NCBI RefSeq assembly: GCF_001006045.1
Contig: NZ_CP011267.1
Location: forward strand, 310,001-374,000
Source: Geoglobus ahangari
GTDB lineage: Archaea; Halobacteriota; Archaeoglobi; Archaeoglobales; Archaeoglobaceae
Direction of reading: 5' to 3'
Length of the DNA: 64,000 nucleotides
Below, one piece after another: positions 24,144-40,836 of the stretch. Position 1 is the stretch's first letter. Each line of letters begins with the position of its first letter. Position numbers and translations under genes: made by a program. The notes under the pieces were generated by a model. It was not told where the DNA came from, ran no database searches, and saw only the letters and a program-made list of their open reading frames with translations.

Positions 24144-25439
24144 TTAATCCATGCTCACGCACTTCTCAACTATTCCGCTCCACTCCTCTCCATAGCCCCT
24201 TTCAAGCGGGATTATGCAGTAGATTGTGAACGTTCCCTCCTCTACGCCCCCACTGATGTATCCGAAAGCGCCAGAATAGGAGTTGTCCACAATCATGTAG
24301 ACTCCCGGAGAGATCTCGTTCCCGTAAACGTCCCTCGCCCCTTCAAGCTCGTAGTAGAGCAGGTTTCCGAGGGTTTCTCTGAAAGCCTCAGCGTTGTCAC
24401 CTATTCTGACGATTGCCGCAGCGTGATCGACGATGCCGGGAACTGATGTATCCACTCCAACCACGTATGCTTCAATGCCGAAGTGTCTGTAAAATGCTAC
24501 CTCAAGCGTCGCCATGTCCTCGCAATCTCCAGCTTTTTCGCTGAGCGTCTCGGCTGGAGTCTGCCTGTAATCTTTCCCTTCCCTGCCGTCACCCACCTCA
24601 AGCCCGACAATCGTGTTTTCAGCCTCCTCATCGTCATACCTGTAGGCAACGTTGTTCTCCACCCAGTAGAAAAACTCCTGAGCCTCCCCAATGCTGAGCT
24701 TCCCGTTCCTGTCAGCATCAAAGCTCTCGAAGAATTCTGCAACGCTGTCGGGGATCAGCTCAGAGCTCGTGCTTTCCTCGCTGACGATTTCCCTCTCAGC
24801 AAGGGGTGTGTAGCCCTCAACCTGAGACACGAGGTTTTCCCTGTACTCAGAGAGGGTGTCGGCAAGCTGCTGAGTTGCGCTGGAGAGGGCGTAGATCGTC
24901 TCAACCTCAGCCTCGTCAATCCCAGCCCTCTGCAGGGTGTTGAGATTTGCGTTCAAAAAATCCGCAAGCCCCTTCCAGTCGTCGGCATTTTCTCTGTAGG
25001 CCCTTTCAAGGAGTTCGACCTTCGGAAGTGCAAGCTCTGCGCTTTCATCAAGCATTTTGTCAAGGAGGGAGCTTCCGAGCTCCCTGACGTTTGCCGTCTT
25101 GTAGGAGAGGGTCGCCCACCTGTCCTCATACTCAATGAGCGTTCCGAGGAATTTGGCGTCTTCGTCGCTGAGATGGGGCTTTACCTCCCCGTACACCTTC
25201 CTCGCCTCGCTCACGTACTCCTTAGCCATTATTGCAGAGTTTCTCGCACCATCGTAATCGTCGTTGATTATAGCTTGCATGCTCTCCTCGACGCTTCTGT
25301 CTGCAGCGCTAATAAGCTCCGCAATTCTGTCCACGCTTCCCTGAACATCTCCCTGAACGTTCTTCTCATCCTCGCTGCAGCCGAGTGAGAGTATGCTGAG
25401 GAGCAGGAGGGAGAGAATAATAAATGAGGGGGTTTTCAT
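24144..25439 (-). CDS. Transglutaminase-like lipoprotein with EF-hand
   Basis: A 431 aa exported lipoprotein. The signal peptide ends in the lipobox LSLGC with Cys21. A helical region follows (about 30-210), then an EF-hand-like calcium loop DADRNGKLSIGE at 241-252. A transglutaminase/papain-like core comes after it: Cys306 in KAGDCEDMA, His339 in IVDHAAAI, Asp385 in MIVDNSYSG. This is the complete Cys-His-Asp set of archaeal transglutaminase-like proteins, which are often proteases or crosslinking enzymes on the outer cell surface. The gene begins five bases after the caspase-like gene ends, so the two form an operon. Its substrate is unknown. Confidence 0.82.
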   Translation of the reverse strand: MKTPSFIILSLLLLSILSLGCSEDEKNVQGDVQGSVDRIAELISAADRSVEESMQAIINDDYDGARNSAIMAKEYVSEARKVYGEVKPHLSDEDAKFLGTLIEYEDRWATLSYKTANVRELGSSLLDKMLDESAELALPKVELLERAYRENADDWKGLADFLNANLNTLQRAGIDEAEVETIYALSSATQQLADTLSEYRENLVSQVEGYTPLAEREIVSEESTSSELIPDSVAEFFESFDADRNGKLSIGEAQEFFYWVENNVAYRYDDEEAENTIVGLEVGDGREGKDYRQTPAETLSEKAGDCEDMATLEVAFYRHFGIEAYVVGVDTSVPGIVDHAAAIVRIGDNAEAFRETLGNLLYYELEGARDVYGNEISPGVYMIVDNSYSGAFGYISGGVEEGTFTIYCIIPLERGYGEEWSGIVEKCVSMD

Positions 25440-25444
25440 TCACA

Positions 25445-27718
25445 TCATCCCAGAAGGTCGCTTATGATGAAGTAGATCTTCACGATGACCTTCACGACCT
25501 CAACCTTGACGCTCTCCACAAAGCCCACACCTGAGTACTGGATCTCCCCGTTGCTGTAGGCCTTCTGAACCTCTGCCACGGGGTCGTCGGAGCTTATGAT
25601 TCTCCTCACAGTCTCCTCGCTCAAACTCGCTCTCGCAGTGGCGTCGTTCAGCTTCCCCTTCTCGAATTCGTTTATGTAGGCGTTCTCCACAACCATGTAG
25701 ATGTCCATCACGCTGCCATCGTCCATCAGGATCTCCACGTTCACCCTCGTGTTGCCGAGCCAGTCCTTCACGAACCCCGGAACCAGATGCGTGTTGTTGT
25801 TGTACCAGTCCTTCTTCTCAACCATCAGGGCGAACAGGTCTCCCGAGGCGATCAGCTCCGAAATCTCGTCCTCACTCAGGATGGGGCTGTCGGAGAGAAT
25901 CAGGGTTTCGTTCGCCACGTCAAAGACGGGAGTGAGCTCCAGCACCAGCTCTGGACGGGGTGGCTCTTCCACAACCGGCTTTTCAGCGTCTATCACCCTC
26001 GGGATGCTGCCCGTGGATATTAACAGCATCTCGACGGTGAACGGTCTGAACATCTCCGGCTGGTCGAAGGACAGCTCTATGACGTTCTCCCTGCCCAGAA
26101 TTCCTTCGTCATAGATTGGAAAGACTACCTCGTATGCGTCAAGGTCTGGCAATTCGTCAAGAGCGTAAACAGGCTCGATTATCTCCGGTTCGAGCTCGAA
26201 TTCGTTCAGATGGAGTGTGACGTTCCCCAGAAACTCGTAAGTCAGATCCTCCTCGATTATTTCCGTTGGCGGTAGGATCATCAGGCTGATGTAGGGCACG
26301 TTGTCGTCTGTGGTGTTCAGAACTTCCAGAAAGTCCTCATCGAGAATCCACACATCCTCATTCTCCAGCTCCTCGTTTTTAACCGGGACTGGCTGCTTTA
26401 CCGGGTCATTTATGAGCAGATCGAGTGCCTTTTCCGTCTTCTCAAGGTTGCCGTGATCCGTGACGAAGATCACAAGCTGCTCATCCTTGTTCATCTTCCC
26501 GGAGAGATCCTTTATGGCGTTCCACAAGGCCTGCTTCGTTCCGGGCCCATCCACATAGGGATTGGCAGCGCTTCTCCCTGAGCCTGCCAGCACAACGATG
26601 TCCTCATCAGAGAAGCCCTGTCCCTTCAGCATGTCCACGAAGCCCTTAATCTCAGTCCAGTCGTAGGTGTCGTCGGGGTCTCCGGCGAAGACTATCGCGT
26701 GCTTGCTCTTCACCTCACTCCCATCGGCATTCTTCCCAAGCCGCACCTTGTCCCCCTCACCCTTAGCCTTGTACTGGGTGTGCTCGCTTCTCTTGTCCAC
26801 ATATCCATTGTACCTTTTATTCGCATACACGCCATACTCGTCCTTTTTCTCCACATTTCTGGCAATCTCCTTCGCAGACTTTCCGCTCTTGAGTCCCTCA
26901 ATTACTTCCCTCGAAAACGGATCTACCTTCACGCCCACACTCGACTCGTTGTAGCCGTAGGCAACCTCATCATGCTTCGCAGCAGATACAACTGCAATAT
27001 CACCATCGATCTTCTTCAGAATGTCGTCAGTCATTCCTCCCCCAAAGCACTGCTGGAAGAAGATGAGCATGTTGGCAAACCCCTTCTCGGCTATCCACAT
27101 CTTGAGCATGTTGGCAAGCTCGAAGTCGTAGATGTTGGCTCCACTCTTCGTAACAATGCTGCTCGACTTCGTCTCAGGCTGATCGAAGAAGTAAGAGCAC
27201 TTGTCTGAATCCTCCTTAACAGGCACAGCCTCAACGTAAACGTTCACAACGAACTTCCCCGGAATCACGACGCTGTAAAACCTCTTTTTCAGCGTTTTGT
27301 CAACCGTGAACTTCGCACTGCCGAGATAATCGTCGGGATCGACTGGCGGGTTGTCCACGTCCGTGGCCTTGATCTCAACCTCCAGATCCACAGGCCAGCA
27401 CTCTCGCACCCTGTAAAGAATCTGCATGACCTCCTTGCCCTCCTTGCTCTTCGGAACGATCTTTCCGCTCACAGTGTCATGATCGTACTCAAAGTAGGTG
27501 TAGTAGCCCTGCCCATCCTTCGCACTGCCAGTGGCTTCGAAGCGAATGTCGGACTTGCCGTTCCACCCATCATCGAAGTTGTCGAGAGGTGTGAAGCTGA
27601 GCAGCCACACCCTCACCTCAACCGCAGGAGGGCCGGGAGGGTCATACTCAGCGTTTCCAACACCTGCCAAGCTAACAAGGAGAATTGCAGAAGCGATAAA
27701 CAAAACAATACCTCTCAT
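25445..27718 (-). CDS. Secreted caspase/legumain-like (C13-type) protein, permuted motif order
   Basis: A 757 aa exported protein. The signal peptide MRGIVLFIASAILLVSLAG ends near GNA, and the ATG at 27718 is chosen with GGGGTG just upstream. Residues about 33-150 look like a C2-type beta-sandwich. The caspase-fold motifs then appear in reversed order. First a Cys segment, MLIFFQQCFGGGMTDDIL (Cys224), followed by DIAVVSAAKHDEVAYGY. About 115 residues later come the first strand KHAIVFAGDPDDTYDW and the His segment QLVIFVTDHGN (His422). In canonical C13/caspase domains the His precedes the Cys. The C-terminal ~320 residues are beta-rich and acidic, with no further Cys. It is the first gene of an operon with the transglutaminase-like lipoprotein. 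Confidence 0.78.
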   Translation of the reverse strand: MRGIVLFIASAILLVSLAGVGNAEYDPPGPPAVEVRVWLLSFTPLDNFDDGWNGKSDIRFEATGSAKDGQGYYTYFEYDHDTVSGKIVPKSKEGKEVMQILYRVRECWPVDLEVEIKATDVDNPPVDPDDYLGSAKFTVDKTLKKRFYSVVIPGKFVVNVYVEAVPVKEDSDKCSYFFDQPETKSSSIVTKSGANIYDFELANMLKMWIAEKGFANMLIFFQQCFGGGMTDDILKKIDGDIAVVSAAKHDEVAYGYNESSVGVKVDPFSREVIEGLKSGKSAKEIARNVEKKDEYGVYANKRYNGYVDKRSEHTQYKAKGEGDKVRLGKNADGSEVKSKHAIVFAGDPDDTYDWTEIKGFVDMLKGQGFSDEDIVVLAGSGRSAANPYVDGPGTKQALWNAIKDLSGKMNKDEQLVIFVTDHGNLEKTEKALDLLINDPVKQPVPVKNEELENEDVWILDEDFLEVLNTTDDNVPYISLMILPPTEIIEEDLTYEFLGNVTLHLNEFELEPEIIEPVYALDELPDLDAYEVVFPIYDEGILGRENVIELSFDQPEMFRPFTVEMLLISTGSIPRVIDAEKPVVEEPPRPELVLELTPVFDVANETLILSDSPILSEDEISELIASGDLFALMVEKKDWYNNNTHLVPGFVKDWLGNTRVNVEILMDDGSVMDIYMVVENAYINEFEKGKLNDATARASLSEETVRRIISSDDPVAEVQKAYSNGEIQYSGVGFVESVKVEVVKVIVKIYFIISDLLG

Positions 27719-27734
27719 CCATGGCACCCCAATT

Positions 27735-28120: not shown

Positions 28121-28702
28121 GTGAAGCTTGGCGAGGTGGGAAAAGGTAATATCCGCTGCGCGACACCTTCTCCCGTGAGCCGCAGAATCCTGTCAGTTCC
28201 CCACCACATGTTCGAGGTTGAGGGAAGAGTGTTCTGGGTGGATGCGCACTTTCCCCCCTACCTCTCGGAGAAGTTCAGGGTTTCCGCGCTGATACGGGCT
28301 GAGGTTGGTGAGAGGCCGGAAGGGGAGGTGTTGAGCGTAGCTATCTCACCTCAGGAGCTTCTCGAGCTCTTCAGAAGTTTGAGGAAATCGGTGGAGGAAG
28401 ACCTGAGGTCGGTGAGATCGGAAAGGGCGAAGAAGATGGGCAGGTGGTCTCTCGCGAGAATCCTCCTCATCCCCAGAGGACATTCGAGGAAGATTGCAGA
28501 GGACGAGGTGCTCGCGAAAAGGGAGAGGGAGCTAAGGATGTCGCTGGAGATTCTGAAAAAGGTCAGCAAGAGCGGGCATCTCGGCAAAACAGGATACCTG
28601 AACCTGACGGTTGAGGAGCAGCGCCCTGCAGACCCGGTATACTCGGAACTACTCGAGGTTGACGAGGGATTTAAAAAAAGGTTTCTGGAGCTGATTCAGT
28701 AA
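28121..28702 (+). CDS. Conserved-looking hypothetical protein
   Basis: A 193 aa soluble protein that I cannot assign. The N-terminal part contains RRILSVPHHMFEVEG and FWVDAHFPPYLSEKFRVSAL. The middle is a charged helical region (SPQELLELFRSLRKSVEEDL). The C-terminal half is basic and helical (RGHSRKIAEDEVLAKRERELR) and ends VDEGFKKRFLELIQ. Codon use matches the neighbours and there is no signal peptide. The start is uncertain: GTG at 28121, GTG at 28136, or ATG at 28208. It is divergent from tRNA-Arg and convergent with oppF, overlapping its end by 7 nt. Confidence 0.7.
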   Translation: MKLGEVGKGNIRCATPSPVSRRILSVPHHMFEVEGRVFWVDAHFPPYLSEKFRVSALIRAEVGERPEGEVLSVAISPQELLELFRSLRKSVEEDLRSVRSERAKKMGRWSLARILLIPRGHSRKIAEDEVLAKRERELRMSLEILKKVSKSGHLGKTGYLNLTVEEQRPADPVYSELLEVDEGFKKRFLELIQ

Positions 28703-29655
28703 AGCCAGCAGGCAACGCTCCTGTCGCCACCCATGTCCTTCAACGGAGGTTCCTTCTCCCTGCACACGTCCATGGCGTACCTGCACCTCGGGTGGAATCT
28801 ACACCCGGACGGCGGGTCTATCGGGCTTGGCGGTTCGCCCACAAGCTGTTCTACCTTCTTACCCCTCTCGTATTCAGGATCGGGGACGGGAATTGCCGAG
28901 AACAGCGCCTTGGTGTACGGGTGGAGGGGTTCTGCGAATATTCTCTCCGCATCACCAACCTCAACAAGCTTTCCGAGGTACATCACCCCTATCCTGTGGC
29001 TCATGTACTCAACAACCGCCAGATCGTGGCTGATGAACAGGTAGGTGAGATCCATCTCCCTCTGTATGTCCCTGAGCATGTTGAGGATGTTGGCCTGCAC
29101 GGAAACGTCCAAAGCTGAAGTTGGCTCGTCGAGGACTATGAAGTCCGGATTCACGGAGAGTATCCTTGCGAGGGCAATCCTCTGCCTCTGCCCGCCGCTG
29201 AACTCGTGGGGATAGCGATACAGGTGCATCTCGTTTAGGCCCACCCTCTCAAGCAGCCTCACCACAAACTCTTCCGGATCACCCACGTCAATACCGTAGT
29301 GCCTCACGGGCTCGATGACAATCTGAAAGACAGTCTTCCTCGGGTTGAGCGAGGAGTACGGATCCTGAAACATTATCTGAGCCTTTCTCCTGAACCACAG
29401 GAGCTCCTTACCGCCCATCTCGACTACGTTCTTGCCCTCAAACACAATCTCCCCGGAGTCGGGCTCGATCAGCCTGAGGATTGTCCTCCCAACCGTCGTC
29501 TTGCCACACCCAGACTCCCCGACGAGACCAAATGTCTCTCCCTTCTTTATCGAGAAGCTCACCCCATCCACAGCCTTAACATGGCCTTTGGTGAAGAATA
29601 TGCCCTTCACGGGGAAGTACTTCCTCAGCTCCCTAACCTCCAGCAGCTCGGTCAT
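28696..29655 (-). CDS. oppF: Peptide ABC transporter ATP-binding protein OppF-like
   Basis: Second ATPase of the Opp/Dpp importer, 319 aa from the ATG at 29655 (MTELLEVRELRKYFPVKG), preceded by GGTGAGTGAG. Walker A GESGCGKT is near 46-53, the signature FSGGQRQR and Walker B FIVLDEPTSALD follow. The C-terminal oligopeptide-transporter extension has DPPSGCRFHPRC and another Cys near the end (ACWLY), the known region for an iron-sulfur site in DppD/DppF proteins. It follows oppD directly. Confidence 0.95.
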   Translation of the reverse strand: MTELLEVRELRKYFPVKGIFFTKGHVKAVDGVSFSIKKGETFGLVGESGCGKTTVGRTILRLIEPDSGEIVFEGKNVVEMGGKELLWFRRKAQIMFQDPYSSLNPRKTVFQIVIEPVRHYGIDVGDPEEFVVRLLERVGLNEMHLYRYPHEFSGGQRQRIALARILSVNPDFIVLDEPTSALDVSVQANILNMLRDIQREMDLTYLFISHDLAVVEYMSHRIGVMYLGKLVEVGDAERIFAEPLHPYTKALFSAIPVPDPEYERGKKVEQLVGEPPSPIDPPSGCRFHPRCRYAMDVCREKEPPLKDMGGDRSVACWLY

Positions 29656-29656
29656 C

Positions 29657-30640
29657 TCACTCACCCGGGTTGTGGCACGCGACAAAGTGCCCTTCCTCCA
29701 GCTCCTCAAGCTCGGGAACCCTCGACCTGCAGATCTCGCTCGCCCTGCTGCACCTCGGGTGGAACCTGCACCCGGACGGCGGGTTTATCAGGTTGGGAAC
29801 AACTCCCGGAATCGTCTCAAGCCTGTCGACCTTCTTGAGCGGGTTAGGAACGGACTTCAGCAGACCGATGGTGTAAGGATGCATTGGTCTGTTGAATATA
29901 GTGTAAACATCCGAGAGCTCAACGATCTTCCCGGCGTACATCACCGCAACTCGATCAGCCATGTCCGCAACTATACCCATGTCGTGGGTGATTAGCAGCA
30001 CCGAAAGCCCGTACTCCCTTTTCATCTTCTTCAGGAGCTCGAGGATCTGCGCCTGCACTGTGACATCAAGAGCGGTTGTGGGCTCGTCGGCGATCAGCAG
30101 CTTTGGGTCGTTGGCGATGCCCGAGCCTATGACCACCCTCTGCTTCATGCCTCCGCTGAGCTCGTGCGGGTAGTTCTTAACCCTCCTCTCGGGATCGGGG
30201 ATCAGAACCCTCCTGAGTATGTCTATCGCCCTGACAATTCCGTCCTTTATCGTTCTCACCCTCCCGTGCACATACATTGCCTCGCTTACCTGATACCCGA
30301 CGGTGTAGAGGGGATCGAGGGAGGACTGGGGATCCTGAAAGATGTAGGCGATGTCCTTGCCCCTGATGTCCCTTATCTCCTCATCGCTCATTCCGAGGAG
30401 CTCGAGCCTCTCACCGTTCCTGTAGAAGTACACCTTCCCTCCCACGATTCTTCCGGGTGACTCTATGAGCTTGGTAATCGCCCTGCTCGTCACACTCTTA
30501 CCGCATCCTGTCTCACCAACAAGGGCGAACGTTTCGCCGGTGTAAACATCAAACGACACGTCCTCTATGGCCTTCACGACTCCGGCGTAGGTGTAAAAGT
30601 GAACCGTGAGGTTCCTAACCTCGAGAAGCTTCTCACTCAT
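29657..30640 (-). CDS. oppD: Peptide ABC transporter ATP-binding protein OppD-like
   Basis: First ATPase of the importer, 327 aa from the ATG at 30640 (MSEKLLEVRNLTVHFYTYAG). Walker A is GETGCGKS at 42-49, signature LSGGMKQR at 161-168, Walker B LLIADEPTTALD from 181. The C-terminus carries four cysteines (SGCRFHPRCSRASEIC and a final FVACHN), as in DppD proteins with a [4Fe-4S] cluster. AAGGTGAG precedes the ATG, which lies 8 nt inside oppC. Confidence 0.95.
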   Translation of the reverse strand: MSEKLLEVRNLTVHFYTYAGVVKAIEDVSFDVYTGETFALVGETGCGKSVTSRAITKLIESPGRIVGGKVYFYRNGERLELLGMSDEEIRDIRGKDIAYIFQDPQSSLDPLYTVGYQVSEAMYVHGRVRTIKDGIVRAIDILRRVLIPDPERRVKNYPHELSGGMKQRVVIGSGIANDPKLLIADEPTTALDVTVQAQILELLKKMKREYGLSVLLITHDMGIVADMADRVAVMYAGKIVELSDVYTIFNRPMHPYTIGLLKSVPNPLKKVDRLETIPGVVPNLINPPSGCRFHPRCSRASEICRSRVPELEELEEGHFVACHNPGE

Positions 30641-31739
30641 TTTCACTCACCTTCTCGGTCTTCTTCACCTTGAACTCTATGCTCCTCCTTAGCTTCGGAT
30701 CGAGGATGTCTCTCAGCGAGTCTCCCAGCAGGTTCCAGCCGAGGACGTTGAGCATGACCACGAGTCCCGGAAAGATAATCAGCCACCAAGCGTTCGGGAA
30801 GAACTGAGAGCCGTCGTAGACGATTCTGCCCCAGTCGGCTATTGGAGGTGTCGCTCCGAGCCCGAGGAAGCTTAAACCAGCCTCGGTCAAAACGACGCTT
30901 CCGAAATCGAGGGTCACGTAAACCAGAATGGGCCCGAGGATGTTGGGGAGCACGTGTCCTGCCATTATCTTTCTGGACGGGAGGCCTATAGCCCTTGCAG
31001 CCTCAACGTATAGCGCTTCCCTCTCGGTGAGAGTAGATCCCCTCGTTATTCTGGCGTACCCCGGCCACCAGACGATTGCAAGGGCGATTATGACCGCAAG
31101 CAGCCTGCTGATGTTTCCGGCCTCTCTCCTGTCGAGGGCGAACACCCACAGCAGAAAGTCCCTCAGGTAGGCGTTGGTCTGTATCAGGTCAGACAGCCTC
31201 TCAGGAAGGACGGCAGCGAAGGCAATGGCGAGGATGAGGGGTGGGAAGGCGAGAAACACGTCCGTGAATCTCATTATGAACTCGTCCACCTTTCCACCGA
31301 AGTATCCGGCTATGAGCCCGAGGGTTATGCCTATGGGCACGCCGATGGAGATGACGATTATCGCAATAACGAGTGACGTCCTCGCGCCCTGCAGAAGAAG
31401 GCTCAGGAGGTCTCTTCCGTAATGATCGGAGCCAAGCAGGTAGTACTTGCCCGGAGGCGATAGGTAGGTATCCGGATTCTCGAATATGGGGAAGTAGTTG
31501 TACTTGTACGGGGCGATCATCGGCCCGAATATACCTATGAATGTGAAGATCAGGACTATGAACAGGCCGGCAACACCAATTGGGCTCCTGTTGAGGGCGT
31601 AGAACATTAGCCTCCACTCTGAGATCCTCGACCTGTTCTTCTCCCTCCAGCCCTTTCTGAAGAGGGAGATCAGAAAGACCACGAGGTCTATGACCTTGTC
31701 CGAAACCCTGTCCAGCAGCTTTCTCTGATACTCCTCCAT
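30633..31739 (-). CDS. oppC: Peptide ABC transporter permease OppC-like
   Basis: A 368 aa permease with an N-terminal cytoplasmic segment, a first membrane helix at about 55-75, a periplasmic-type loop (YLSPPGKYYLLGSDHYGRD, typical of OppC/DppC) and about five further helices. The EAA coupling motif is in TEREALYVEAARAIGLPSRK. It pairs with OppB to form the channel. GAGGTGGTGAA precedes the ATG. Confidence 0.95.
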   Translation of the reverse strand: MEEYQRKLLDRVSDKVIDLVVFLISLFRKGWREKNRSRISEWRLMFYALNRSPIGVAGLFIVLIFTFIGIFGPMIAPYKYNYFPIFENPDTYLSPPGKYYLLGSDHYGRDLLSLLLQGARTSLVIAIIVISIGVPIGITLGLIAGYFGGKVDEFIMRFTDVFLAFPPLILAIAFAAVLPERLSDLIQTNAYLRDFLLWVFALDRREAGNISRLLAVIIALAIVWWPGYARITRGSTLTEREALYVEAARAIGLPSRKIMAGHVLPNILGPILVYVTLDFGSVVLTEAGLSFLGLGATPPIADWGRIVYDGSQFFPNAWWLIIFPGLVVMLNVLGWNLLGDSLRDILDPKLRRSIEFKVKKTEKVSENE

Positions 31740-31748
31740 TTCACCACC

Positions 31749-32750
31749 TCAGTACCTCACCCTCGGGTCTATCAGCGCGTAGACGACATCCACGATAAGA
31801 TTGGCTATGACGTAGATTATGGCGAAAACGAACGTGACAGCAACTATTGCGGGAAAGTCGAGGGCGCTTATGGCAAATATCGCGTAAAGCCCTATCCCCG
31901 GAAGGCCGAAGACCGTCTCGGTTATGGGTGCTCCGCTCAGAAGTCCTCCAAACTGAAGTCCGAGAACCGTGACAACAGGAACGAGGGCGTTTTTGAGGGC
32001 GTGCCTGTAGATCCTCATCTTCGGAACGCCCTTGGCCTTGAGAAACTCTATATAGTCCCCACTCATCGCCTCGAGGAACGAGTTCCTGACGAACCTCGCG
32101 ACAACGCCCGCCCCCATGAAGCCCAGAACGAAGCCGGGAAGCCAGAACCTGCTCACGTGCTGCTTTACGAGCTCGAAGTTTCCGGTGAGGAGGGAGTCGA
32201 TGATCGGAATGCCCGTTATCGTCGTGTCGGGGGATGGAGGCACCCCGGCAAGGGTTATGATCCTGTGCTGAACGAAGAACACGTAAATGAGAATGTAACC
32301 GAGCCAGAAAACAGGGGTTGAGACGCCGAAGAGGGCGAATACTCTTACGAACGTGTCTATCACCGTATCCTTCTTAATCGCCGACAGGATCCCGAGGGGG
32401 ATGCCTATCAGGAGAACGAAGAAGTAGGCAAACAGGGCGAGCTGAAAAGTGACCGGGAAACGCTTGGCAATGTCGTCCATCACGGGGTTTGATGTTCTCG
32501 GATCTATTATCTCGTTCTTCAGCAGACCCTTGACGAGGAACACGTACTGAACATACCACGGATCGTCCATGTGGTACTGCTCCCTTATCATCTCTATGGC
32601 CTTCTGGCTCGCCTTCTCTCCACCGGCCCACGCCCTTGCAGGGTCGGCAGGGATCGCGTAGGCAATTATGAAAACGATGAAGGTGACGCCAATTATCGTG
32701 GGGATAAACGTGAGCAGCCTTCTGACGAGAAACTTTTTCAGCTCTGCCAT
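31749..32750 (-). CDS. oppB: Peptide ABC transporter permease OppB-like
   Basis: A 333 aa permease with six predicted helices. The N-terminal signature VRRLLTFIPTIIGVTFIVF is typical of OppB/DppB, as are DDPWYVQYV and the EAA loop with MSGDYIEFLKAKGVPK. GGAGGTCGAGAG precedes the ATG. The gene has its own promoter, separate from the binding-protein gene. Confidence 0.95.
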   Translation of the reverse strand: MAELKKFLVRRLLTFIPTIIGVTFIVFIIAYAIPADPARAWAGGEKASQKAIEMIREQYHMDDPWYVQYVFLVKGLLKNEIIDPRTSNPVMDDIAKRFPVTFQLALFAYFFVLLIGIPLGILSAIKKDTVIDTFVRVFALFGVSTPVFWLGYILIYVFFVQHRIITLAGVPPSPDTTITGIPIIDSLLTGNFELVKQHVSRFWLPGFVLGFMGAGVVARFVRNSFLEAMSGDYIEFLKAKGVPKMRIYRHALKNALVPVVTVLGLQFGGLLSGAPITETVFGLPGIGLYAIFAISALDFPAIVAVTFVFAIIYVIANLIVDVVYALIDPRVRY

Positions 32751-32863: not shown

Positions 32864-34984
32864 TTACTCAACCGTTACGGTCACCTCCTTGAAGGCGGTG
32901 GCTCCGTAGTAGAGCGGTCCGACCCAGTTGTCGGTGTCAAGGTAGTCCGGCACCCATCCGATTATGTAGAAGTCGAACTGTCCGTGCTCACCCTTGCTGA
33001 GGTACACTGGCCACTCGAGTCCGTTTACGGTGACCTGGAATCCGAGCTGGCTCCAGGTGTTCTGCAGGAGCGTCGCGATCTTCTCTCTCGCGGAGTTACC
33101 GGTGTTGTACGTTATCTCGATGGAGTACTTGGTTGGATCGATGCCAGACTTCTCGATGAGCTCCTTGGCCTTGTTCATGTCGAACGTGTACTTCTTGATT
33201 CCGTACTCCGTGTAGCCTGGCCATCCCTTCGGAATTGCCGCGTAGTTCCTCTCAAGCAGTCCGGAGTAGACGTTCTTGGATATCGTGTCGTATGGCGTCG
33301 CGTAAGCCAGCGCTTCCCTGACGAGCTTGTTGTTGAACGGCTCCTTGTAGGTGTTGAAGACACCGTAGGTTATAACGGGCTGCAGCAGGTCGGTCTTCAC
33401 CACTGACTCATAGCCCTCGAGGGTGAGTCCCTTGGCGTCCTCGAGCCTCTCCGGCGGGAGGGCAACGACGTCAACCGTTCCGGTCTTGAAGAGGTTGACC
33501 CTCGAGACGGCGTCGTTGTTTATGATCCAGATCACGGTGTCGTGCATTGCCTTGTCTCCGCCAGAATACATCTCATCCCAGAGCGACTTGCCCCAGTAGT
33601 ACGGGTTCTTCTTCGCAACTATGTAGCTGTTCTCCTCGTACTCGGCGATGTAGTACGGCCCGGTTCCAACCGGCTTCTGGTGCATCAGCTGGTGGGTAGC
33701 ATCTTCTTTACCCTCGCTGACGTAAGCCTCCCAGGCAGACGGGTTCTTGCCGTTGTCCGATGCCTGCAGTGCCTCCTCATACTTGTCTCCAAGCAGGTAC
33801 TCCATTGGAAGCACAGACAGGAACGGATCTGCCAGAATTCCGAGTATCGGTGAGTACGGCTCCGGGAGCTTGAGCTTGTAGACTCCTGCCGTCTCGCCGC
33901 TGTATCCGAACATGTTCAGCAGCTCGTCAAGGGACTTGACCTCTCCTGCCTTGCCCTTGAACTCGGCGTAGAGCTTCTCATTGGCGAGCACGTTCTTGAA
34001 CTCCTCCTCGGTCATGGCGGTGGAGTTGTCAACGTCAACAAAGTCGAGCATCCAGCTGACGGAGTGGCCGATCCTCTTGACCCTCCAGATGCTGAACGCA
34101 ACGTCTGTGGCATCTATCGGGTATGTCTTGTCATTCCAAGGATCATAAGCGACAACTCCTCCCCTGATGACGAAGTACCACTCCGTGCCGTCCTCGTTGT
34201 GTGCCCAGGCAACGGCGAGGTCGGGCGAGACCTCCTCAGTCTCCTCCTTCCAGTAGGTCACGAGCGTGTCGCCAATCTGGTGCCAGATCTCCCATCCGAA
34301 TGTCTCGTAGGTCGTTGCCGGATCGAAGCTCTCTGGCCAGCCGATGGTTCCTATGACATAGGTGTTCGGATCGTTCACGTAGTCCTTGACACCGATCTCG
34401 ATGGACGGTGCGTTCGGATCCTCCCAGAGCAGGTCGTACCTCTCGGCAAGGGTCGGGTGGTAGTACCTGCCCTCAAGCCAGCTCCAGTAGACTCTCAGCT
34501 GCTTGTTCTGTCCGAATGTCAGGAGCGGTGACTCGTCGTTGGCAATTATGTACATGGCCTCGAAGAGTGCTGTCCTTATCTCCGGGTTGGTCTCCTTCCT
34601 TGCAGCCTTCACAAGTGCGTCAAAGGCGGTGTCCCTCCAGAAGGCGGGGTTTATTGCTCCAAATCCGAGACCCTTCTCCATGAGTTCCTCGATGCTCGGG
34701 GTGTTCTCCTCGTCAACCACGTAGCTAACCCTTATGACCTTCTTGCCACCCGGAGCGCTCACACTCTCAACTTTACCCTTCTCTCCAACGATCACGTAGT
34801 ACTTCTCAGTCTCAACAATCCTCACGCCCTCCGGTATCGAGGGAGTCTCCGTTGGCGCGGGAGTTGCTGTCTTCTCGGGAGTCGGTGTTGGTGTCGCTGC
34901 AGGCTTCTCTTGCTGCTGTGTACAGCCTGCAAATACCAGCCCCAGTGCCACAAGCACGAAGAGCACCAATACAATCTTTCTCAT
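32864..34984 (-). CDS. oppA: Peptide-binding lipoprotein OppA-like, apparently circularly permuted
   Basis: Extracellular binding lipoprotein of the Opp importer (SBP_bac_5 family), 706 aa from the ATG at 34984, preceded by GAGGTGGATGTAAG. The signal peptide ends in the lipobox GLVFAGC (Cys21), and a Thr/Pro linker covers 31-50. Residues about 119-190 (TAFDALVKAARKETNPEIR ... NKQLRVYWSWLEG ... YDLLWED) are what normally forms the C-terminal end of the family. The usual N-terminal start, IGWPESFDPATTYETFG, comes only at about 215. The protein then runs to GWVPDYLDTDNWVGPLYYG and stops, just where the FDALV segment would normally follow. All parts seem present but in permuted order. It heads the opp cluster. 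Confidence 0.85.
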   Translation of the reverse strand: MRKIVLVLFVLVALGLVFAGCTQQQEKPAATPTPTPEKTATPAPTETPSIPEGVRIVETEKYYVIVGEKGKVESVSAPGGKKVIRVSYVVDEENTPSIEELMEKGLGFGAINPAFWRDTAFDALVKAARKETNPEIRTALFEAMYIIANDESPLLTFGQNKQLRVYWSWLEGRYYHPTLAERYDLLWEDPNAPSIEIGVKDYVNDPNTYVIGTIGWPESFDPATTYETFGWEIWHQIGDTLVTYWKEETEEVSPDLAVAWAHNEDGTEWYFVIRGGVVAYDPWNDKTYPIDATDVAFSIWRVKRIGHSVSWMLDFVDVDNSTAMTEEEFKNVLANEKLYAEFKGKAGEVKSLDELLNMFGYSGETAGVYKLKLPEPYSPILGILADPFLSVLPMEYLLGDKYEEALQASDNGKNPSAWEAYVSEGKEDATHQLMHQKPVGTGPYYIAEYEENSYIVAKKNPYYWGKSLWDEMYSGGDKAMHDTVIWIINNDAVSRVNLFKTGTVDVVALPPERLEDAKGLTLEGYESVVKTDLLQPVITYGVFNTYKEPFNNKLVREALAYATPYDTISKNVYSGLLERNYAAIPKGWPGYTEYGIKKYTFDMNKAKELIEKSGIDPTKYSIEITYNTGNSAREKIATLLQNTWSQLGFQVTVNGLEWPVYLSKGEHGQFDFYIIGWVPDYLDTDNWVGPLYYGATAFKEVTVTVE

Positions 34985-40167: not shown

Positions 40168-40836
40168 ATGGGTTCAAGAACGCTCGCTTTCGTGATCCTG
40201 ATCGCTCTCACAATCCCCGCCCTGCTCTCGTCCGGATGCGCGGACAAACAGGAGGCCAAGGTTGTTTTCGACACGCAGCACAGACCAATATTCTCGAGCT
40301 TCGAGAAGATGAAGGGCGTGTTCACAGAAAAGGGGCTGGAGGTTGTTGAAGGAGGTATTGACGATCTCGGAGATGCGAGGGCATACATCCTCACAGGGCC
40401 GGCGCACAGGGTTTACGAGAGGGAGATTGTGGACTTTGTGAAGGGTGGCGGGGTGCTGGTGATCATGATCCACATCCCTCCCACCAACCTGATGCCGCTG
40501 CTTAAGGCGTTCGGCATGAGCGCTGACACGAGCCCGATAGAGCACAACGTCGTTAAGGCCATCCCTTCTGTTGAAACCGAGCTATCCAGAGATGTGGAGA
40601 GCATAGTTCTTTACGGGGCGTTCAGAGTTAGCAATCCAGTTTTCGTTGAGGATAAGAGCGTCATCAGGCTCTCGGGCGAAGAGAAGGGAGTGGTGGGGAT
40701 GAAGAGGTTTGGAGAAGGCTACGTGATACTCATAGGCGATGACGCTGCTTTCATGGACACATACATAGACAGCGCAGACAACCTGAAATTCGTTGAGAAC
40801 CTCGCCGAGTTCATACTGAAGAATGGCAAAGGTTAA
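40168..40836 (+). CDS. DUF4350-like lipoprotein with GATase-type fold
   Basis: A 222 aa exported lipoprotein: signal peptide, then LLSSGC with Cys24. The mature part resembles the DUF4350/ThuA-like alpha/beta fold, with VVFDTQHRPIFSS at the start, AYILTGPAHRVYEREIVDFV, the turn KGGGVLVIMIHIPP and the late GEGYVILIGDDAAFMD, where IGDDAAF resembles the conserved 'GDSDF' of such domains. The role is unknown. The AOR promoter overlaps its stop codon. Confidence 0.72.
   Translation: MGSRTLAFVILIALTIPALLSSGCADKQEAKVVFDTQHRPIFSSFEKMKGVFTEKGLEVVEGGIDDLGDARAYILTGPAHRVYEREIVDFVKGGGVLVIMIHIPPTNLMPLLKAFGMSADTSPIEHNVVKAIPSVETELSRDVESIVLYGAFRVSNPVFVEDKSVIRLSGEEKGVVGMKRFGEGYVILIGDDAAFMDTYIDSADNLKFVENLAEFILKNGKG

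Follow-up and report, generated by a model that had tools for sequence, protein, structure and literature searches.

The locus analyzed here raises two questions: whether the chain of a peptide-binding lipoprotein is truly circularly permuted, and how such an arrangement could have arisen. It lies in a window (the whole 64,000-nucleotide stretch analyzed) from Geoglobus ahangari, whose genome is a single complete contig of 1,770,093 bp. The gene encodes a 706-aa, DppA/OppA-like lipoprotein of the SBP_bac_5 type, and occupies positions 32864–34984 on the minus strand, with the ATG at 34984 and the stop codon at 32866–32864. The original prediction, made from sequence alone, had placed an OppA-type protein at these coordinates, which held, and had proposed that its C-terminal lobe was moved to the N-terminus.

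Order of segments in the window protein

The chain (all coordinates on the minus strand) begins with a signal peptide and lipobox, LVFAGC, ending at Cys21 (residues 1–21, 34922–34984); the signal peptide and cysteine are also conserved in the Archaeoglobus and Thermococcus homologues. A Thr/Pro-rich linker follows (residues 22–53, 34826–34921), and such a linker precedes the body of the solute-binding protein (SBP) irrespective of permutation type. Residues ~54–99 (34688–34825), assigned with the junction profile described below, form the N-terminal half of an opened S4-S1 junction. Next comes S1 (residues 100–198, 34391–34687), which is the canonical C-terminal piece of SBP_bac_5 proteins and here stands before the N-terminal part. 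The canonical C- and N-termini are fused at residues ~186–210 (34355–34429), where the window protein reads '..YDLLWEDPNAPS...NTYVIGTIGWP', and this S1-S2 fusion is common to every permuted type. S2, the canonical N-terminal and middle part, spans residues 205–475 (33560–34372), and S4, the canonical later part, spans residues 478–697 (32894–33553) and ends in GWVPDYLDTDNWVGPLYYGATA. The remaining half of the opened S4-S1 junction ends in the C-terminal strand FKEVTVTVE (32867–32893), and the chain terminates ...GWVPDYLDTDNWVGPLYYGATAFKEVTVTVE. The motifs typical of the canonical C-terminal end, FDALVKAARKE (residues 121–130), RVYWSWLEG (164–172) and YDLLWE (183–188), thus precede the canonical N-terminal motif FDPATTYETFG, which begins at residue 220, an arrangement well past anything expected by chance. 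Accordingly, the claims that the C-end motifs lie at residues 119–190, ahead of an N-terminal start at about 220, and that the lipobox and Thr/Pro linker were retained both held.

The window protein matches the Pfam SBP_bac_5 domain (PF00496) with 219.7 bits against a cut-off of 32.4, but does not follow the canonical order of N-terminal part, middle and C-terminal piece, as S1 comes first. In a phmmer search against the PDB, Yersinia DppA (5f1q) was matched in three out-of-order pieces, with residues 214–303, 430–692 and 113–160 of the window protein corresponding to 5f1q residues 36–126, 199–448 and 459–506, respectively. Similarly, positions 142–263, 384–631 and 60–132 of a profile of the type A family (the window protein's own type, defined below) matched residues 36–151, 199–446 and 455–527 of canonical archaeal SBPs; the moved piece scored 14–26 bits in four of five such proteins and 3.5 bits in the fifth. 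We then searched 177,635 PDB sequences and all fetched loci with a profile of S1 only, built from 22 sequences. Twenty PDB entries matched at E ≤ 1 (best, 3e-4); all 20 were SBP_bac_5-type proteins, binding peptides, nickel or haem, and all 20 were matched at the C-terminal end. In the fetched loci, just four proteins outside the family were matched (E from 7e-8 to 2e-4); all were canonical archaeal SBPs, one of them from the window's genome, and each was matched over its final ~70 residues. The window protein carries this piece only in front of its N-terminal part, without a second copy at the end. Because DppA and other SBPs are matched in out-of-order pieces and the S1 profile is specific to SBP_bac_5 C-terminal ends, this sequence evidence shows that the window lipoprotein is truly a DppA/OppA-type binding protein (SBP_bac_5, cluster C) in circularly permuted form. 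The predicted permutation is thereby supported, both by the out-of-order profile matches and by the conservation of the segment order in relatives. A PDB search with the sequence restored to canonical order (109.5 versus 108.9 bits) was uninformative, since HMMER gives each local piece its own score whichever order is used. Domain databases conceal such permutations: the Pfam domain seems intact in the window protein because the moved piece falls outside the model.

Structure prediction, which had been proposed as a check, gave a partial answer. An AlphaFold2 model made with nine A-type homologues was not usable (pLDDT 52). With type A homologues plus fragments of types B and C as the alignment, the mature protein was modeled with a mean pLDDT of 75 and a pTM of 0.69, and the best PDB matches found by Foldseek were DppA and relatives, including OppA (E down to 1e-19; target-normalised TM ~0.43–0.59, sequential alignment only). 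This model, of middling confidence and compared only by order-dependent alignment, agrees with the DppA fold, but by itself does not prove that S1 closes the C-lobe.

One closed chain, five openings

We sorted the homologues, about 107 distinct proteins, by the order of five segments. Type A, S1-S2-S4, comprises 80 distinct proteins, including the window protein. The 26 proteins of type B have the order S4-S1-S2 and are opened at the loop after NPYYW, which corresponds to residues ~464–480 of the window protein (after NPYYWG; 33545–33595). Type C, known from one genome (L011), is cut about 50 residues into S4, at the equivalent of residues ~520–524 of the window protein (33413–33427). Among the classified homologues, the canonical order was met solely in distant paralogues, and the genomes sampled yielded no member of this family itself in unpermuted form. 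In types B and C, the Pfam SBP_bac_5 domain is found as two pieces with the later part of the model first, which independently confirms their segment order.

Types B and C have a closed S4-S1 junction. We ran a profile of the closed junction, 111 columns long, against the tails of the type A proteins, and found that each tail holds the columns that the other lacks. Columns 1–26 fall in the C-terminal tail, and the rest, minus a few lost residues, in the N-terminal tail, both in the window's group and in another Thermococcal group; the window protein itself is cut at column 26, with residues ~54–99 and the start of S1 representing columns 39–111. In most type A proteins of Thermoproteota, columns 1–38 lie in the C-terminal tail and columns 40–111 in the N-terminal tail. 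In a divergent third group, the C-terminal tail extends to column ~55 and the N-terminal tail holds the rest. The junction helix is N-terminal in one type A group and C-terminal in another, a placement at opposite ends that simple insertion or deletion cannot produce. From the complementary tails and the opposite placement of the helix, it follows that type A comprises three openings, making five topologies in all: three within the S4-S1 junction (including that of the window protein), one after NPYYW and one about 50 residues further on. As to whether relatives share the arrangement, a check that had also been proposed, the type A order is shared in dozens of genomes, and relatives carry four other openings as well. 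One genome of Thermoproteota (G330) contains both a type A protein with the opening at column ~55 (L137) and a type B protein (L131), each with its own dppB–F. We considered B-like residues in the loops of type A proteins as scars of a former B topology, but did not adopt this reading, as the loop insertion may predate the B opening.

Homologues that match over the full length in this order were found in Archaeoglobus (six further genomes of the class), Thermococci and some Thermoproteota. A family member is present in 64 of 115 genomes of the phylum that includes the Thermococci and in 39 of 398 Thermoproteota genomes. The gene is absent from six other genomes of the window's genus, and so has either disappeared from them or been gained in the lineage of the window. 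A search of viral contigs for relatives returned none. In Thermoplasmatota, one of 293 genomes has a homologue, the sole type C protein (L011). It lies on a 4.9-kb contig labelled Thermoplasmata, its nearest relatives are Thermococcal, and the contig may have been mis-binned.

Recurrence and route of the permutation

For phylogenetic analysis, the segments of the SBPs were placed in one register (65 rows). The A, B and C states require four changes on the resulting tree. When the three A openings are separated, five changes are needed among the permuted forms and six if the canonical form is included, the latter number also being obtained in 498 of 500 bootstrap trees. The AU test rejected a single clade for all type A proteins (without A55; p = 4e-4) and for all type B proteins (p = 2e-7), and a single clade for euryarchaeal type A was likewise rejected (p = 2e-6). 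The tree of the neighboring permease, DppB, carries no information on the permutation and likewise requires four A/B changes. The type B proteins of Thermococci (L010, L127 and L128) are 84–85% identical to Thermococcal type A proteins, versus 55–57% to the nearest type B proteins of Thermoproteota. Since the branch point of this Thermococcal B clade differs among the SBP, DppB and concatenated trees, the direction of change, from A to B or from B to A, is unsettled. Whatever the tree, five distinct openings require at least four events. It is thus very likely that re-permutation has been recurrent, with at least five topologies arising by at least four and probably five changes within a conserved operon, some of them between 85% identical proteins, while the anchor and linker served as a fixed adaptor.

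Three points can be read directly from the sequences. The canonical C- and N-termini are joined; the opening of the body lies in the junction that links the last two canonical segments, with the new N-terminus placed on the lipobox and Thr/Pro linker; and the closed chain has been opened in at least five ways in related archaea, the gene being kept with dppB or dppBCDF. From this persistence of the gene beside its transporter genes despite the openings, we infer that the fold and the transport function tolerate permutation. How the openings arose is a matter of inference. Of the two standard models, permutation by duplication and fission-fusion (PMC3320104), we regard the former as the likelier route, although no intermediate was seen. 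In this scheme, the mature part would first have undergone tandem duplication or fusion, the 5' piece behind the linker and the 3' piece would then have been lost, and the cycle of duplication and truncation would have been repeated several times at exposed loops. Duplication followed by truncation fits because the re-opening was repeated with the signal peptide and linker kept. The route is not demonstrated, however, because no tandem-duplicate or half-truncated intermediate was present among the classified homologues and no remnants of a former tandem copy were recognisable in the 3' flanks of the A and B genes.

Several other explanations were considered. The first holds that there were fewer events, part of the alternation between A and B having come about through horizontal transfer or through recombination of A with B genes. 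The shifting place of the Thermococcal B clade between gene trees speaks for it. Nevertheless, it is improbable, because transfer leaves the topology on the gene's own tree unchanged, the minimum of four events holds on any tree, and the Thermococcal B proteins are far closer to Thermococcal A than to the B proteins of Thermoproteota.

The second, fission-fusion, would have the gene split into two co-transcribed halves that were later fused in the other order. The recurrence of breaks at the same loops favors it, as do two broken copies (G101/L129 and G150/L130). We consider it an unlikely route, given that L129 represents a deletion with a frameshift, not a functional split pair, that L130 too reads as a frameshifted copy, and that no functional split gene was found among the classified homologues. 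The locus in G101 had been a candidate for a functional split gene and was rejected on this ground. Copies broken by a frameshift, deletion or internal stop occur in several Thermococci (L129, L130, L140 and genome G115); at L130, intact transporter genes adjoin the broken copy.

In the third, the re-openings would be adaptive: by attaching the tether on a different face of the protein, they would alter permease docking or ligand release. What shifts among the inspected members is the attachment point alone, the N-terminal anchor and low-complexity linker being retained, and a tether argument of this kind was made for TpMglB-2 (PMC4990184). Against it, the topology differs between close relatives with the same operon, and no trait was found that tracks topology; we consider this reading unlikely.

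The fourth, domain capture, would have S1 derive from a different SBP gene and be joined on at the front instead of moving within one gene, a possibility also weighed for TpMglB-2. The resemblance of S1 to canonical SBPs is indeed weak (14–30 bits in clear cases), but capture is very improbable: no second S1 remains at the C-terminus, the junction columns are complementarily divided between the two tails, and the same S1 comes after S4 in types B and C, just as in canonical proteins.

Finally, several homologues come from metagenome-assembled genomes, but an assembly or annotation artefact, the former of which the original prediction had named as a possible refutation, is all but ruled out by dozens of independent genomes with the same order, among them the complete window genome and many single-contig genomes of Thermococci and Archaeoglobi in which the frame is unbroken and the operon follows, and by type B genes that also lie on very long contigs (G089, G195 and G348).

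Operon, function and known systems

The window gene lies in an operon on the minus strand with genes for a DppB-type permease, which is the next gene (31749–32750), a DppC-type permease (30633–31739), a DppD-type ATPase (29657–30646) and a DppF-type ATPase (28696–29709); with two permeases and two ATPases, the criterion for a Dpp/Opp ABC importer is met. dppB is found directly 3' of nearly all A and B genes, and dppBCDF is complete in nearly all loci with sufficient flank. At two type A loci with the opening at column 38 (L072 and L073), no dppB is directly downstream and one is instead located on the opposite strand at a distance of about 3.4 kb, and a second copy, L111, has no dppB nearby. 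A lipobox or membrane anchor and a low-complexity linker precede the body in the members inspected. The window protein thus very likely serves a Dpp/Opp-type ABC importer as its membrane-tethered binding subunit, with a cluster C circular permutant as the body. A conserved GWxPDYxDxDN motif lines up with GWTGDNGDPDN in DppA, the Asp of which binds the amino group of the peptide. Because this Asp aligns and the operon is dppBCDF, we infer that the ligand is probably a peptide and the function peptide import, without ligand-binding data. The score against the DppA equivalog model (NCBIfam NF043070) was 109.9 bits and did not reach the cut-off of 1005; the protein might act like DppA but is not an equivalog.

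The original prediction had also linked the permutation to a similar event in a nearby caspase-like protein; beyond proximity, this link has no support. The latter is a secreted C13/caspase-like protein (25445–27727, minus strand), of which residues 126–278 match positions 60–212 of the Pfam Peptidase_C13 profile. Its motif 'QQCFGGG' lies ahead of 'KHAIVFAG...FVTDHG', the reverse of the usual order, so a second permutation is plausible there, on motif order alone and without comparison with relatives. Adjoining it is a lipoprotein (24144–25439, minus strand) in which a weak EF-hand-like stretch stands ahead of a transglutaminase-like domain (DUF553/Transglut_core). A small lipoprotein with a DUF4350 domain is encoded at 40168–40836 on the plus strand.

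Natural circular permutations are usually regarded as single, ancient events that separate distant proteins. In this family, permutation distinguishes close orthologues whose genomic neighbors are the same, so that the origin of permutations, the loops that tolerate them, and neutrality versus a tethering effect become directly testable. DNA methyltransferases, saposin/swaposin and transhydrogenases are known natural cases (reviewed in PMC3320104). Like the present family, they are naturally permuted, some with more than one arrangement, but they are not solute-binding proteins, and the relevant passages of that review describe no case of several openings among ~85% identical orthologues in one conserved operon.

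With the canonical DppA/OppA-type SBPs of cluster C, the window protein shares homology over the whole body (PDB DppA 5f1q/1dpp), the dppBCDF operon partners and the lipoprotein anchor. It differs in its order of C-terminal piece, N-terminal part and middle, in the fusion of the canonical termini, and in an S4-S1 junction longer than the canonical one. In the open-access literature searched (subscription papers excluded), we found no permuted OppA or cluster C proteins and no SBP family with several permutations; within that literature, multiple openings in one SBP family appear to be new. The nearest precedent for this permuted SBP_bac_5 family is TpMglB-2 (Tp0684), which with its relatives forms 'cluster Bc', a natural circular permutant of one topology (PMC4990184) for which no permutation series has been reported. 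TpMglB-2 is likewise a permuted, membrane-tethered binding protein of an ABC importer, but it has the cluster B sugar-binding fold and a single topology, with the chain cut elsewhere.
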